From Nitrospirota bacterium (lineage in GTDB: Bacteria; Nitrospirota; Nitrospiria; Nitrospirales; Nitrospiraceae), in the NCBI GenBank assembly GCA_028876065.1, contig JAGWTI010000017.1, positions 1 through 44,368 of the forward strand: a stretch of DNA of 44,368 nucleotides, given 5' to 3'. The notes under the pieces were generated by a model. It worked only from the letters and a program-made list of their open reading frames with translations, did no database searches and was not told the DNA's origin. This document shows, piece by piece, positions 9,608 through 14,049 of the stretch (position 1 is the stretch's first letter; every line of letters starts with the position of its first letter). The translations under genes and the position numbers were made by a program.

Positions 9608-10375
9608 GTGACGGCATCTCCCCAGAACCAGATTCTTTCCCTCTCCGTCATCATTCCGGCCTACAACGAGGCCCAACGGATCCTGCCCTACGTGCAGCAC
9701 ATCACCGCCTATCTGGACCAAAGGAACCAGCCTTACGAAATCCTGGTCGTGGACGACGGGAGCCACGACGAAACGGCTGCGGTTGTGGAGCAGTTCCAGG
9801 CTCAACACCAGGCGGTCCGGCTCGTCAGGCTCCCGACGAACAGAGGCAAGGGCCATGCGGTACGCACCGGGATGCAACAGGCCCAGGGCGAGCTTCGCCT
9901 CATGGCCGACGCGGACGGAGCGACGCCGATCCAGGAGTTGGAACGGCTGGAAGCGGCCATTCACAATGGCGCCGATCTGGCAATCGGCTCCCGTCCCCTG
10001 GCCTACAGCGATGCCCGCTACAAAGTCCAAGTACGCTGGCACAGGTCCTGGGCAGGAAACTTGTTCAACTGGTTCGTGCAACGCCTGGGCATTCCCGGTA
10101 TCCGAGACACGCAATGCGGCTTTAAACTGTTTCACGCCAACGTGGCCCGGGACTTATTCAGCGTCTCCCGCATCGACGGCTATGGCTTCGACCTGGAACT
10201 GCTCTACGTCGCGCAGCGACGCGGCTATCAGATCGCCGAAGTGCCCATCAATTGGGCCGACCAGCCAGGCTCAAAAGTGCTGGTGCTACGCGACGGGTTC
10301 CGGATGTTCCGGGAATTGTTGGCCGTGAAGCGCAACGACGCCAAGGGACTGTATGAGCGACAAGGAGGCCACTGA
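9608..10375 (+). CDS. GT2 family glycosyltransferase, dolichyl-phosphate glucosyltransferase (ALG5/DPM)-like
   Basis: 255 residues with a GT-A fold. Visible motifs are SVIIPAYNEAQRI, EILVVDDGSHDET, the ADADGATP catalytic metal site, a DTQCGFKLF segment and EVPINW, all characteristic of ALG5-like polyprenyl-phosphate sugar transferases. No transmembrane domain is present. It starts with GTG at 9608, preceded by GGAG at 5 bp. It would make a polyprenyl-phosphate sugar donor, which matches the GT-C-like membrane protein across the island. Its last 34 codons before the C-terminal five recur in degenerate form at 11305-11406. Confidence 0.9.
   Translation: MTASPQNQILSLSVIIPAYNEAQRILPYVQHITAYLDQRNQPYEILVVDDGSHDETAAVVEQFQAQHQAVRLVRLPTNRGKGHAVRTGMQQAQGELRLMADADGATPIQELERLEAAIHNGADLAIGSRPLAYSDARYKVQVRWHRSWAGNLFNWFVQRLGIPGIRDTQCGFKLFHANVARDLFSVSRIDGYGFDLELLYVAQRRGYQIAEVPINWADQPGSKVLVLRDGFRMFRELLAVKRNDAKGLYERQGGH
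10259..10360 (+). repeat. Intact copy of the glycosyltransferase 3' repeat
   Basis: These 34 codons (starting DQPGSKVLVLRDG) are repeated at 11305-11406 with 76/102 identical bases and 26/34 identical residues. They flank the two-gene module between them. Confidence 0.8.
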
Positions 10376-11301: not shown

Positions 11302-11421
11302 ACCGACCAGCCAAGCCCAAAAGTCCGGGTATTACGCGACGGACTGCGGATGTTCTGCGAGCTACTGGTGGTGCAGCGCAATGATGCCAAAGGCCTATAT
11401 GCGAGGCGAGCAACCGAATAA
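11302..11421 (+). pseudogene. Displaced 3' end of a second glycosyltransferase gene
   Basis: Reading frame from 11302 gives DQPSPKVRVLRDGLRMF and so on, matching the last part of the intact glycosyltransferase (26/34 residues) and ending in its own stop at 11421. No upstream coding part of a glycosyltransferase remains; the preceding sequence is the nucleotidyltransferase gene. Most differences are synonymous or conservative, so this copy evolved in a functional gene elsewhere before truncation, not by decay of a recent duplication. Confidence 0.8.
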
Positions 11422-11442: not shown

Positions 11443-11850
11443 TCAGCCCTGACTCGGCAATAGTCTGATCCCTTCGACCATCTCAAAATGACGACGGTTA
11501 TTGGTACAGAGGGTTAGCTCGTTCCGGATGGCGGTACAGGCGATAAAGAGGTCGCAATCACCGACGGTCCGGCCCAATTGTCTCAAGCGACCACGTTCCT
11601 TCCCAAATAAACTGCACACTTCCTCGTCAAGGGGAAGGACGACGAGACCCGCCATGAACCGCTGCAGCGCAGCCAAACTGTGGAGGGGATTGCGTGAATA
11701 GTGTGCGCCCTCGTAGAGTTCGGCTAGGGAAATGACACTGACGGCCAGCCCTTCGGGTTCGAGATCACGAAGCTTCCGTGTGACAAGCTCAATGCCGCAG
11801 AGATGGTCGATGATCCAGTCAGTATCGACGAGATAGGAGGGGCGTGGCAC
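11443..11850 (-). CDS. vapC: VapC-type PIN-domain ribonuclease toxin
   Basis: 135 residues with the PIN-domain acidic set: VDTDWIID near the N-terminus, the Glu in SLAELYEGA, Asp residues in GDCDLFIA, and a late CTNNRRHF. PIN toxins cleave tRNA or rRNA. GTG at 11850 begins one base after the antitoxin stop; an ATG at 11880 would overlap it by 29 bp and adds ten non-conserved residues. It pairs with the DUF104-like antitoxin. Confidence 0.88.
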   Translation of the reverse strand: MPRPSYLVDTDWIIDHLCGIELVTRKLRDLEPEGLAVSVISLAELYEGAHYSRNPLHSLAALQRFMAGLVVLPLDEEVCSLFGKERGRLRQLGRTVGDCDLFIACTAIRNELTLCTNNRRHFEMVEGIRLLPSQG

Positions 11851-11851
11851 G

Positions 11852-12091
11852 TCAGAAGGAAACCGGCGGACGGGTGGCAACCAGGCGGTCGGCGTAAATA
11901 TTCCGCTTCAGTTCCTCGGCATCCAGCAGACCTTTCCATAAACCAGCGGTCTCCCGGACGAGGGAGCCGGAAGGCGACACAATCGGAGACACGGCCAACA
12001 GGACCTCCTCGCCTTCGTGGACCAAATCAGGCGGTGGAGGGTCGAGTGGGGTAAAGGTTCCGCGTGAGAATCTAGCCTTGATTGTCTTCAC
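11852..12091 (-). CDS. VapB-type antitoxin, DUF104/AF2212-like
   Basis: 79 residues. The N-terminus (KTIKARFSRGTFTPLDPPP) and the following GEEVLLAV are the characteristic beta-strand of DUF104 antitoxins, here with GTG start at 12091. The C-terminal helix region (GLWKGLLDAEELKRNIYADR) is the usual toxin-binding arm. Immediately upstream of vapC on the same strand. Confidence 0.85.
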   Translation of the reverse strand: MKTIKARFSRGTFTPLDPPPPDLVHEGEEVLLAVSPIVSPSGSLVRETAGLWKGLLDAEELKRNIYADRLVATRPPVSF

Positions 12092-12185: not shown

Positions 12186-12455
12186 TCATGCCGGCTTGGT
12201 GACGGCCAGCCGGTCATGCACATGCTCACCGCTCAGGGATCGGTGGGCAAACAAGAGGCAGGCTTGGATATCTTCTCGCTCCAGAAAGGGATATTCCCGC
12301 AAAATGGTTTCCGGCTGGTCCCCGGCGGCCAACATGCCGAGGACATGTTCCACCGCGATCCGCAACCCGCGAATAATCGGCTTGCCCCCGAAAATCTCGG
12401 GATTCACAACGATCCGCTCCAGTAATTGCTGTTCGTTTAATTGCTGCTCACTCAT
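12186..12455 (-). CDS. DUF433 family protein (antitoxin-like)
   Basis: 89 residues. The segment IVVNPEIFGGKPIIRGLRIAVEHVLGML is the DUF433 signature, a winged/helix-turn-helix-like small protein normally paired with a PIN-like DUF5615 toxin. No DUF5615 gene follows it, so it may be an orphan antitoxin. Its ATG overlaps the stop of an upstream gene fragment (ATGA), suggesting it was once second in a pair. Confidence 0.8.
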   Translation of the reverse strand: MSEQQLNEQQLLERIVVNPEIFGGKPIIRGLRIAVEHVLGMLAAGDQPETILREYPFLEREDIQACLLFAHRSLSGEHVHDRLAVTKPA

Positions 12456-12611
12456 GAGAGCCTCCGTTGCCGAACACGGACGCGAACGAGATCACCCTGC
12501 ACCAACCGGAAACGAATGACAAACCAGCCGATGTTCTCGGCACCCGGCCCCTTTTCTCCTTCGTCCAAACTCTGAAGAGACAAGCGCGTTTGCGCTTGGA
12601 GTTCATCCGCG
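12452..12611 (-). pseudogene. Orphan 3' gene fragment upstream of DUF433
   Basis: A frame with no usable ATG runs about 52 codons into a TGA that overlaps the DUF433 start (ATGA). It encodes a charged, strand-like C-terminus (NIGWFVIRFRLVQGDLVRV). The tight coupling and protein-like composition suggest the remains of a real gene, family unknown. Confidence 0.3.
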
Positions 12612-12914
12612 ATCTACGAGATAGCCGACGTAAAGAAGCAGGGCCACAATGGCACCGGAGGGAACGAAACCCATTCCGACGAGCCCTAGGACGGATACCC
12701 ACTTCGGTACAATTCGTCTTCCGGCAGTTCGTTCCCATGTTCCGTCTATAAGCGTAGATGGTGCACGCCGGGAAATGAAGAACCGAATGAGAAAGATGTT
12801 CGTAAAGTACATTGCGCCCCCGGCGCCCATCAGACTGAGCGCAAACGAATACGTAGTGCCATCCTGCCAGGCCACAAAGATCGGAATTACGAATGCGAGG
12901 ATCAACCAGGACAT
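12603..12914 (-). CDS. Small membrane protein, hypothetical
   Basis: 103 residues with three hydrophobic segments (about residues 3-15, 22-48 and 73-98) separated by a basic loop (RFFISRRAPS). No family recognised. Base composition is visibly lower in GC than neighbouring core genes, as in the adjacent integron-like cassette, so both were probably acquired together. No attC-like site follows it. Confidence 0.55.
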   Translation of the reverse strand: MSWLILAFVIPIFVAWQDGTTYSFALSLMGAGGAMYFTNIFLIRFFISRRAPSTLIDGTWERTAGRRIVPKWVSVLGLVGMGFVPSGAIVALLLYVGYLVDRG

Positions 12915-13020: not shown

Positions 13021-13084
13021 TCCTAACGTTTGAGATCAGGCCACGGCCCGTCAGGACCGTCGCGTCTGCAGCGAAGGGTTAGGG
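13021..13084 (-). other. attC-like integron recombination site
   Basis: Read on the minus strand, a 64-nt element starts with CCCTAAC (R'' box), has a central hairpin (ACGGTCC, loop TGAC, GGGCCGT), and ends with CTGATCTCAAACGTTAGGA (L' and R' boxes). The outer CCTAAC/GTTAGG boxes are exact complements. The stop codon of the upstream gene lies inside it and the gene's last residues (NPSLQTRRS) are encoded by it, as is usual for integron cassettes. Confidence 0.7.
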
Positions 13085-13512
13085 ACATTTGCCTTCATAT
13101 GCTTGAAGTCTAGCGCACCCAATTCCGTATAACGCACAAGGCGGCGTGAAAGAAGATCCTGACGAATTGCCACCATGAGTTCTCCTAACGCCCTCTCCCT
13201 AACATCATCTGGTTGAACATTTCCGGTATGAACCGAGCTTAGAAACGCATATGCCTTGCGAATTACATCATCTGGACAGTAGAGCCAACTTTGATTGAGC
13301 TGGTTAATGAATTCGTTCCGCAGGTCCAGGGCGTTCTGCTCGCCCTCGTAAAACCCTCGGACGCACCTAACAAGCTCCTTGTACTTTTCTTCCTTTCGAA
13401 GGTATTGCTCCCAACGTAGTTTTCTCCACTCATTGAAGAACCACGCGAAAATCGCCCCAAGCGCAGGGACAGCAAATTTAAGAAATTCGATCGATGCAAG
13501 TGAATCTAACAC
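13051..13512 (-). CDS. Integron cassette-type gene, single-TM hypothetical protein
   Basis: 153 residues starting at GTG 13512. One N-terminal membrane anchor (FLKFAVPALGAIFAWFF) is followed by a basic, coiled-coil-prone helical domain (RKLRWEQYLRKEEKYKELVR); no known family. It fills a 510-bp unit (13027-13536) bounded by a GTTAGGG core 24 bp before the start codon and the attC-like site at the 3' end, exactly the layout of an integron gene cassette. GC is lower than the genome. No integrase gene is in the window. Confidence 0.65.
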   Translation of the reverse strand: MLDSLASIEFLKFAVPALGAIFAWFFNEWRKLRWEQYLRKEEKYKELVRCVRGFYEGEQNALDLRNEFINQLNQSWLYCPDDVIRKAYAFLSSVHTGNVQPDDVRERALGELMVAIRQDLLSRRLVRYTELGALDFKHMKANVPNPSLQTRRS

Positions 13513-13530
13513 GGCACTCTCTATGCCCCC

Positions 13531-13537
13531 CCCTAAC
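13531..13537 (-). other. 5' boundary core site of the gene cassette (GTTAGGG)
   Basis: A GTTRRRY-type core on the minus strand lies 18 nt before the cassette gene's GTG codon. It would be the crossover site left by the preceding attI, attC or secondary site. No full attC is recognisable upstream of it. Confidence 0.45.
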
Positions 13538-13707
13538 TACTGAGCATACTGACCGGTATATCCTGCCCCTACCAGATTGGGAACGATTGCGCGATTCTTA
13601 TCTGATCTCAACGGCTTGTCAAGAATCTCTATAGCACAGGGCCGACTTGATATGCCGATCGGCCGTGTCTTCCAAGGGATCAGTCTGCCTGCCCAGCCCC
13701 CGCGCTT

Positions 13708-13743
13708 CACGAAAATTAACACCCGATAGACCTCGCGCCAGTC
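13708..13743 (-). pseudogene. Remnant of the 3' end of a homologue of the 14050-15606 gene
   Basis: On the minus strand this reads DWREVYRVLIFVK, against DWREVYLDSKVAIFVR at the end of the intact neighbour. 18 of the first 19 bases are identical (13725-13743 against 14082-14100). The fragment has lost the stop and about three codons. Short, so moderate certainty. Confidence 0.5.
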
Positions 13744-13745
13744 GA

Positions 13746-14049
13746 GGCCTGATCAAGGGACAGGTCCCTCAGGGACCTGTCCCGCCCACTTCTCTCCCTC
13801 CCATCGGGCGCAACTTAGCCTTCTTCTGAGACAGCCTGGTTGATCGCCACTGCGCGCATCGCTTCTCCCATCCTTCTTCGCAGCGGGTGCCCTGCTGGTC
13901 CGACTGCGGCCGTCGAGCGAGCACATTTTTACTGCGTGCTCCGGGAGCAAAGGACCGCAGGGCATCCGCTCATCTCCACTTCTGCAAGCAAGGTGATTAA
14001 CCAGGCTGCCCATCCCTTCGTTATCCTCTTTTTCCCCACCTCTTCATTT
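13746..14049. other. Non-coding segment, no gene recognised
   Basis: 304 bp between the remnant tail and the intact membrane-protein gene. Apart from the hairpin at 13757-13783 I see no convincing gene. An 86-codon minus-strand frame (13753-14013) has low-complexity Arg/Ser/Gly composition and is probably not translated. Confidence 0.4.
13757..13783. repeat. Perfect 12-bp inverted repeat hairpin
   Basis: GGGACAGGTCCC, loop TCA, GGGACCTGTCCC. Each arm is itself nearly palindromic. No T-tract follows on either strand, so it is not a standard terminator; it resembles dispersed REP-like palindromes. Confidence 0.65.

Follow-up and report, generated by a model that had tools for sequence, protein, structure and literature searches.

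A first-position gene cassette at an attI site with a promoter-like sequence as the probable remnant of a Nitrospiraceae chromosomal integron

The window, that is, the whole 44,368-nucleotide stretch of contig JAGWTI010000017.1 that was analysed, carries on its minus strand a short gene that ends in an attC site and is preceded by an attI core and a promoter-like site. The features are as follows (window coordinates; the caret marks the crossover).

11443-11880: PIN/VapC toxin-like gene, beside the cassette
12186-12455: DUF433 gene, beside the cassette
12603..12914, minus: gene for a 103-aa membrane protein, downstream of the attC site
13021..13084, minus: attC site, 64 nt (from the covariance model and identity to known attC sites)
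13084-13078, 13072-13064, 13041-13034 and 13027-13021, minus: attC boxes R'' (CCCTAAC), L'', L' and R' (GTTAGGA), respectively
13027..13536, minus: gene cassette, 510 bp from crossover to crossover (TTAGGG...G; crossover points read from the sequence)
13051..13512, minus: cassette gene starting with GTG and coding for 153 aa, with a predicted membrane helix at the N-terminus and a predicted helical domain
13531..13537, minus: 5' core GTTAGGG, exact complement of R''; crossover between G13537 and T13536
13533..13554, minus: attI core GGTCAGTATGCTCAGTAG^TTAG, 2 mismatches to the family consensus and 0 matches in 100 shuffles
13537..13690, minus: remainder of the attI/promoter module, with a repeat-like segment upstream (from the alignment of 27 modules)
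13594..13622, minus: promoter-like (Pc-like) site TTGACA-17-AAGAAT, directed into the cassette; agrees with the consensus at 10 of 12 positions, hexamers conserved across modules

An earlier note on this DNA had described a 510-bp unit with a GTTAGGG core 18 bp before the start codon, and reading the minus strand from 13536 to 13027 confirmed this: the GTG start at 13512 lies 18 bp after the core (13537-13531), and the gene is oriented toward its own attC. The 5' core complements R'' perfectly, while the integrated R' differs from it in the last base; an exact complement of R'' is what a circular cassette with a perfect R''/R' pair would leave. The GC content of the coding part was below that of its surroundings, as had been stated (47.5% vs 62.5% for the window, within the lowest 1% of equal-sized stretches). 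The codons for the last 11 residues of the protein (VPNPSLQTRRS) and the stop codon fall within the attC or at its edge, again in line with the note, and this tail was absent from the relatives of the protein.

The attC assignment was examined with a covariance model trained on 13 attC sites that did not include the window site. The alignment of these 13 sites shows the canonical attC structure with its extrahelical base, 94% of the pair cells being paired, compared with 13-46% in slid controls. The window site scored 53.9 bits (E 1.5e-13), and the next best place in the window reached 12 bits; the model thus found only one attC in the window, the other attCs of the genome lying on other contigs. 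This search had been put forward in the earlier note as the check on its proposal of a single integron cassette, with a lack of any score counting against it, and the strong score bears the proposal out. The complementary outer boxes that it had described were present, and the central hairpin (ACGGTCC/GGGCCGT), which it had also named, and a 6-bp outer stem were predicted. The fold energy of the site was no better than that of shuffles (z -1.07), so that structure alone is insufficient as proof of an attC, and fold energy was dropped as an argument. An Rfam search, also at a relaxed threshold, returned no attC family among the matches listed. A Python scan by attC structure alone did not report the window site at its threshold, owing to the L boxes, in which two bases are substituted with respect to the OXA-10-type consensus; the sequence-plus-structure model detected it. 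These substitutions may also have reduced the recombination efficiency of the site.

In blastn searches, OXA-10-family beta-lactamase cassettes in 15 plasmid records had an attC that matched the window site with 90% identity over 60 bases. The record that was read in context carries intI1, aac(6')-Ib, blaOXA-101 and qacEdelta1, a class 1 integron, and the blaOXA-101 attC showed 90% identity to the window site. Length and architecture of the two sites are equal, whereas the OXA gene is unrelated to that of the window, and class 1 integrons have a divergent intI and a different attI. Related attCs were also found in four Nitrospiraceae genomes that do not carry the cassette gene (G111, 92% identity; G060, 84%; G073, 82%; G144, 77%). 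In G111, the near-identical attC follows an unrelated NAD-dependent epimerase-like gene in a single cassette (L103, G111:C143:1402-2139); in G060 the attC shares a contig with a full intI, ca. 3.6 kb apart, and G144 has a row of attCs. The range of OXA-10-type attC sites is thereby extended to an environmental nitrifier lineage.

The cassette protein had no match in Pfam, NCBIfam or PADLOC. Seven relatives with 50-61% identity were found in scattered taxa, and those in Aliivibrio finisterrensis, a Methylomonas MAG and a gammaproteobacterial MAG are flanked by attC; in loci L018, L020 and L016 the relatives lie between attC sites, and the Aliivibrio finisterrensis gene has long Vibrio-type repeats on both sides. 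Since relatives flanked by attC occur in such scattered taxa, the gene is a travelling cassette gene. The earlier note had held that occurrence of the gene outside any integron context in many genomes would speak against a cassette; the relatives are few, and several lie between attC sites. The gene was found in 0 of the 146 other family genomes, and searches of phages and IMG/VR gave no matches. An AlphaFold model of modest confidence (pLDDT 71, pTM 0.53) shows a long N-terminal helix, which is probably membrane-anchoring, followed by further helices, with no significant match in the PDB and no convincing solved relative. From this model, the product may at most be described as small, helical and membrane-anchored.

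Before the cassette, ordinary chromosomal sequence had been expected, and the earlier note mentions no attI or promoter there. Comparison of the left flanks of several family cassettes showed that they share a sequence ending in ACTCAATAG^TT, which also occurs just downstream of intact intI in G060, G138 and G144. The 27 aligned copies define a module of ca. 150 bp with a conserved TTGACA-17-AAGAAT pair and, downstream of it, the attI core (family consensus GGTCAGTATrCTCArTAG^TTAG). Beyond G^TTAG, identity among the modules drops, which would be expected of insertion points that received different cassettes. The core match, the module alignment and the flanks of intact intI together place an attI site at the window locus. 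Its promoter-like site lies 58 bp upstream of the crossover and is directed into the cassette gene, which is probably transcribed from it. Judged by its sequence, the 510-bp unit passed every test for an integron gene cassette, and it is a genuine one, occupying the first position at an attI site that has a promoter-like sequence. Since the insertion point is such an attI, the locus is better seen as an integron platform remnant than as a randomly dropped cassette.

The distribution of the attI core was then surveyed among 147 family genomes. With up to 3 mismatches allowed in a pattern search, which is not a calibrated profile, the 22-base core was found at 107 places in 58 genomes, and the reversed-pattern control gave 0. 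The promoter-attI module occurs in up to eight copies per genome, mostly without a full integrase gene: a full intI above the TIGR02249 cut-off was present in 15 of the 147 genomes and in only 8 of the 58 that bear the module, leaving 50 without. In the intact family integrons examined, the order was intI, attI and cassettes, all in one direction. A profile of family IntI proteins detected truncated intI remnants upstream of 9 of 30 modules (E <= 0.0012), mostly the last 20-60 residues, and in none of 30 downstream control stretches. Searches for the module on plasmids and in viral contigs gave no matches. The earlier statement that integron cassettes are poorly known in Nitrospira-like bacteria is only partly right, since two CALINs were reported for Ca. 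Nitrospira inopinata with IntegronFinder 2.0 (PMC9024848) and full intI occurs in the 15 genomes mentioned above. In the literature searched, which left subscription papers mostly outside, no description of dispersed orphan attI modules in Nitrospiraceae was found, and we claim no priority. These orphan platforms are the more interesting part of the finding than the window cassette. By means of the conserved promoter-attI sequence, integron relics can be looked for that appear as lone sites in searches for attC alone, and the origin of single-cassette elements, by intI loss or by off-target insertion, becomes testable.

At L175 (G146:C126), an attC runs directly into a second attI copy (GTTATGCCGGTCAGTATACTCAATAG), an arrangement similar to that of the delta-attI-type cassettes known from class 1 and 2 integrons. 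In G018:C48 9638-13476, an intI C-terminal fragment occurs three times with a spacing of ca. 1830 bp, which suggests tandem repetition of an intI-tail/attI unit.

In the source genome, which is a 158-contig draft rated 100% complete, no integron integrase above the TIGR02249 cut-off was found; no intI adjoins the window cassette, and the family IntI profile detected no remnant next to the window module. The earlier claim that the cassette has no integrase thus holds for the assembled genome, but the insertion point is an attI with a promoter-like site, and the locus is what is left of an integron platform. Elsewhere in the same genome (G000), C22:5581-7019 (L124) carries an attI module, a possible 16-residue intI tail and an attC, and in C13:3-1221 (L123), at the edge of the contig, two attCs accompany methyltransferase-like and SnoaL-like ORFs. 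Since the assembly is a 158-contig draft and this cassette array runs off contig C13, it is possible that an intI lies in unassembled sequence.

Based on these results, we consider it highly probable that the feature is the remnant of an atypical chromosomal integron of the Nitrospiraceae, with intI upstream and in the same direction, which lost intI and kept the promoter, the attI and a single cassette in first position. An integron integrase that the cell line possessed at the time, or that was supplied in trans, would have recombined a circular cassette, whose attC carried the perfect R''/R' pair CCCTAAC/GTTAGGG, into G^TT of the attI. Such an insertion would place the circle's own R' half, GTTAGGG, at the 5' end, and the 3' site would be completed by the former attI half to the hybrid R' GTTAGGA; this accounts for a 5' core that complements R'' while the integrated R' differs by one base. 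The same insertion signature with another gene was seen in G111 (R'' GTCTAAC, 5' core GTTAGAC, integrated R' GTTAATG). Deletion of intI would have followed the insertion, and the cassette gene would now be read from the platform promoter. We infer this order of events, as well as the loss of intI at the window copy, the transcription and the present immobility; for the loss, the ground is the intI tail relics at sister modules, none being detectable locally. Loss of intI with retention of the promoter, attI and cassette would be the parsimonious history. The two L-box substitutions and the missing integrase suggest that the cassette is now fixed. The locus would, thus, show a route from cassette to fixed chromosomal gene, in which the integrase goes and the promoter and first cassette stay.

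An alternative is that the platform is alive and that an integrase, unassembled elsewhere in the genome or arriving on mobile DNA, serves the window and other dispersed attI sites in trans. The further attCs of the genome, including the two at the edge of C13, the several attI modules per genome in relatives and the reported mobilisation of CALIN cassettes in trans (PMC12444791) are consistent with it, but the completeness rating of a genome without an integrase match above the cut-off, the 50 of 58 module-bearing genomes without full intI and the partly decayed L boxes of the window site make it rather unlikely. Equally doubtful, as a broader proposal for the family, is that cassettes land and are expressed at the many dispersed promoter-attI platforms, on which a single integrase or transient integrases would act in trans; the integron would then be a genome-wide set of single-cassette sockets instead of one array.

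The reading considered first was that an integrase acting in trans put the single cassette at a non-classical genomic (attG) site and that the locus never held an integron. Cassette insertion at attG is on record (Loot et al. 2024, cited in PMC11023631 and PMC12690207), likewise as a single cassette away from a full integron, and neither intI nor an intI relic lies beside the window copy. An attG site is unlike attI or attC, however, whereas ca. 150 bp of the left flank can be aligned to the promoter-attI module that accompanies intI in the family, and the attI core has no match in shuffles; unlike the attG insertions as described by the citing papers, the window insertion point is attI-like and has a promoter. 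This reading was dropped once the flank matched attI, and we now regard it as quite improbable. A chance inverted repeat without any integron feature, which the fold energy and the lack of an attC family among the listed Rfam matches would allow, is refuted by the covariance score (53.9 bits vs 12 for the next best place) and the 90% identity to the OXA-family attC of a known mobile cassette, and the matching 5' core and attI add to this, so that its probability is negligible.

Among described elements, the window feature would best be filed as a single-attC, integrase-less element (SALIN) that retains attI and promoter: like SALINs and CALINs, it has one genuine attC and a cassette gene, with no integrase nearby, in a genome without full integrase, whereas a recognisable attI with promoter lies outside the requirements of the SALIN/CALIN definition. 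The Treponema-type atypical chromosomal integrons, in which intI is transcribed toward attI, are a parallel to the integrons examined in Nitrospiraceae, where attI lies downstream of intI and the cassettes run in the same direction, and Treponema phagedenis is a precedent for loss of intI with attC kept (PMC3607928). Unlike that type, the window locus has no intI, and the Nitrospiraceae attI module recurs at several places per genome.

The toxin-antitoxin neighbours mentioned in the earlier note correspond to the PIN/VapC toxin-like gene and the DUF433 gene, which adjoin the cassette; the stretch at 12602-12448, before the DUF433 gene, is presumably a remnant of a DUF5615-type toxin gene, in line with the pairs that such genes form. 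The 103-aa gene was considered as a second cassette and rejected, since its relatives, found only in G066 and G080, have no attC. The 3' end of a glycosyltransferase gene is repeated (77% identical) at 11303-11402 and 10257-10355, and the island from this repeat to ca. 14060 is missing or replaced in three genus relatives. An exact empty site was sought in the genus, and G001-G003 lack the whole region, which leaves no clean junction. Directly upstream of the attI module, 13693-13745 appears to repeat the 3' end of the neighbouring 518-aa gene (DWREVY..IFVK) in decayed form, the match at the DNA level being weak (22 bases at 91%); the event that removed intI may have left it as a scar. At 13756-13786, a palindromic GGGACAGGTCCCT...AGGGACCTGTCCC repeat was found, which also occurs at the junction of the variable region in G003:C1.
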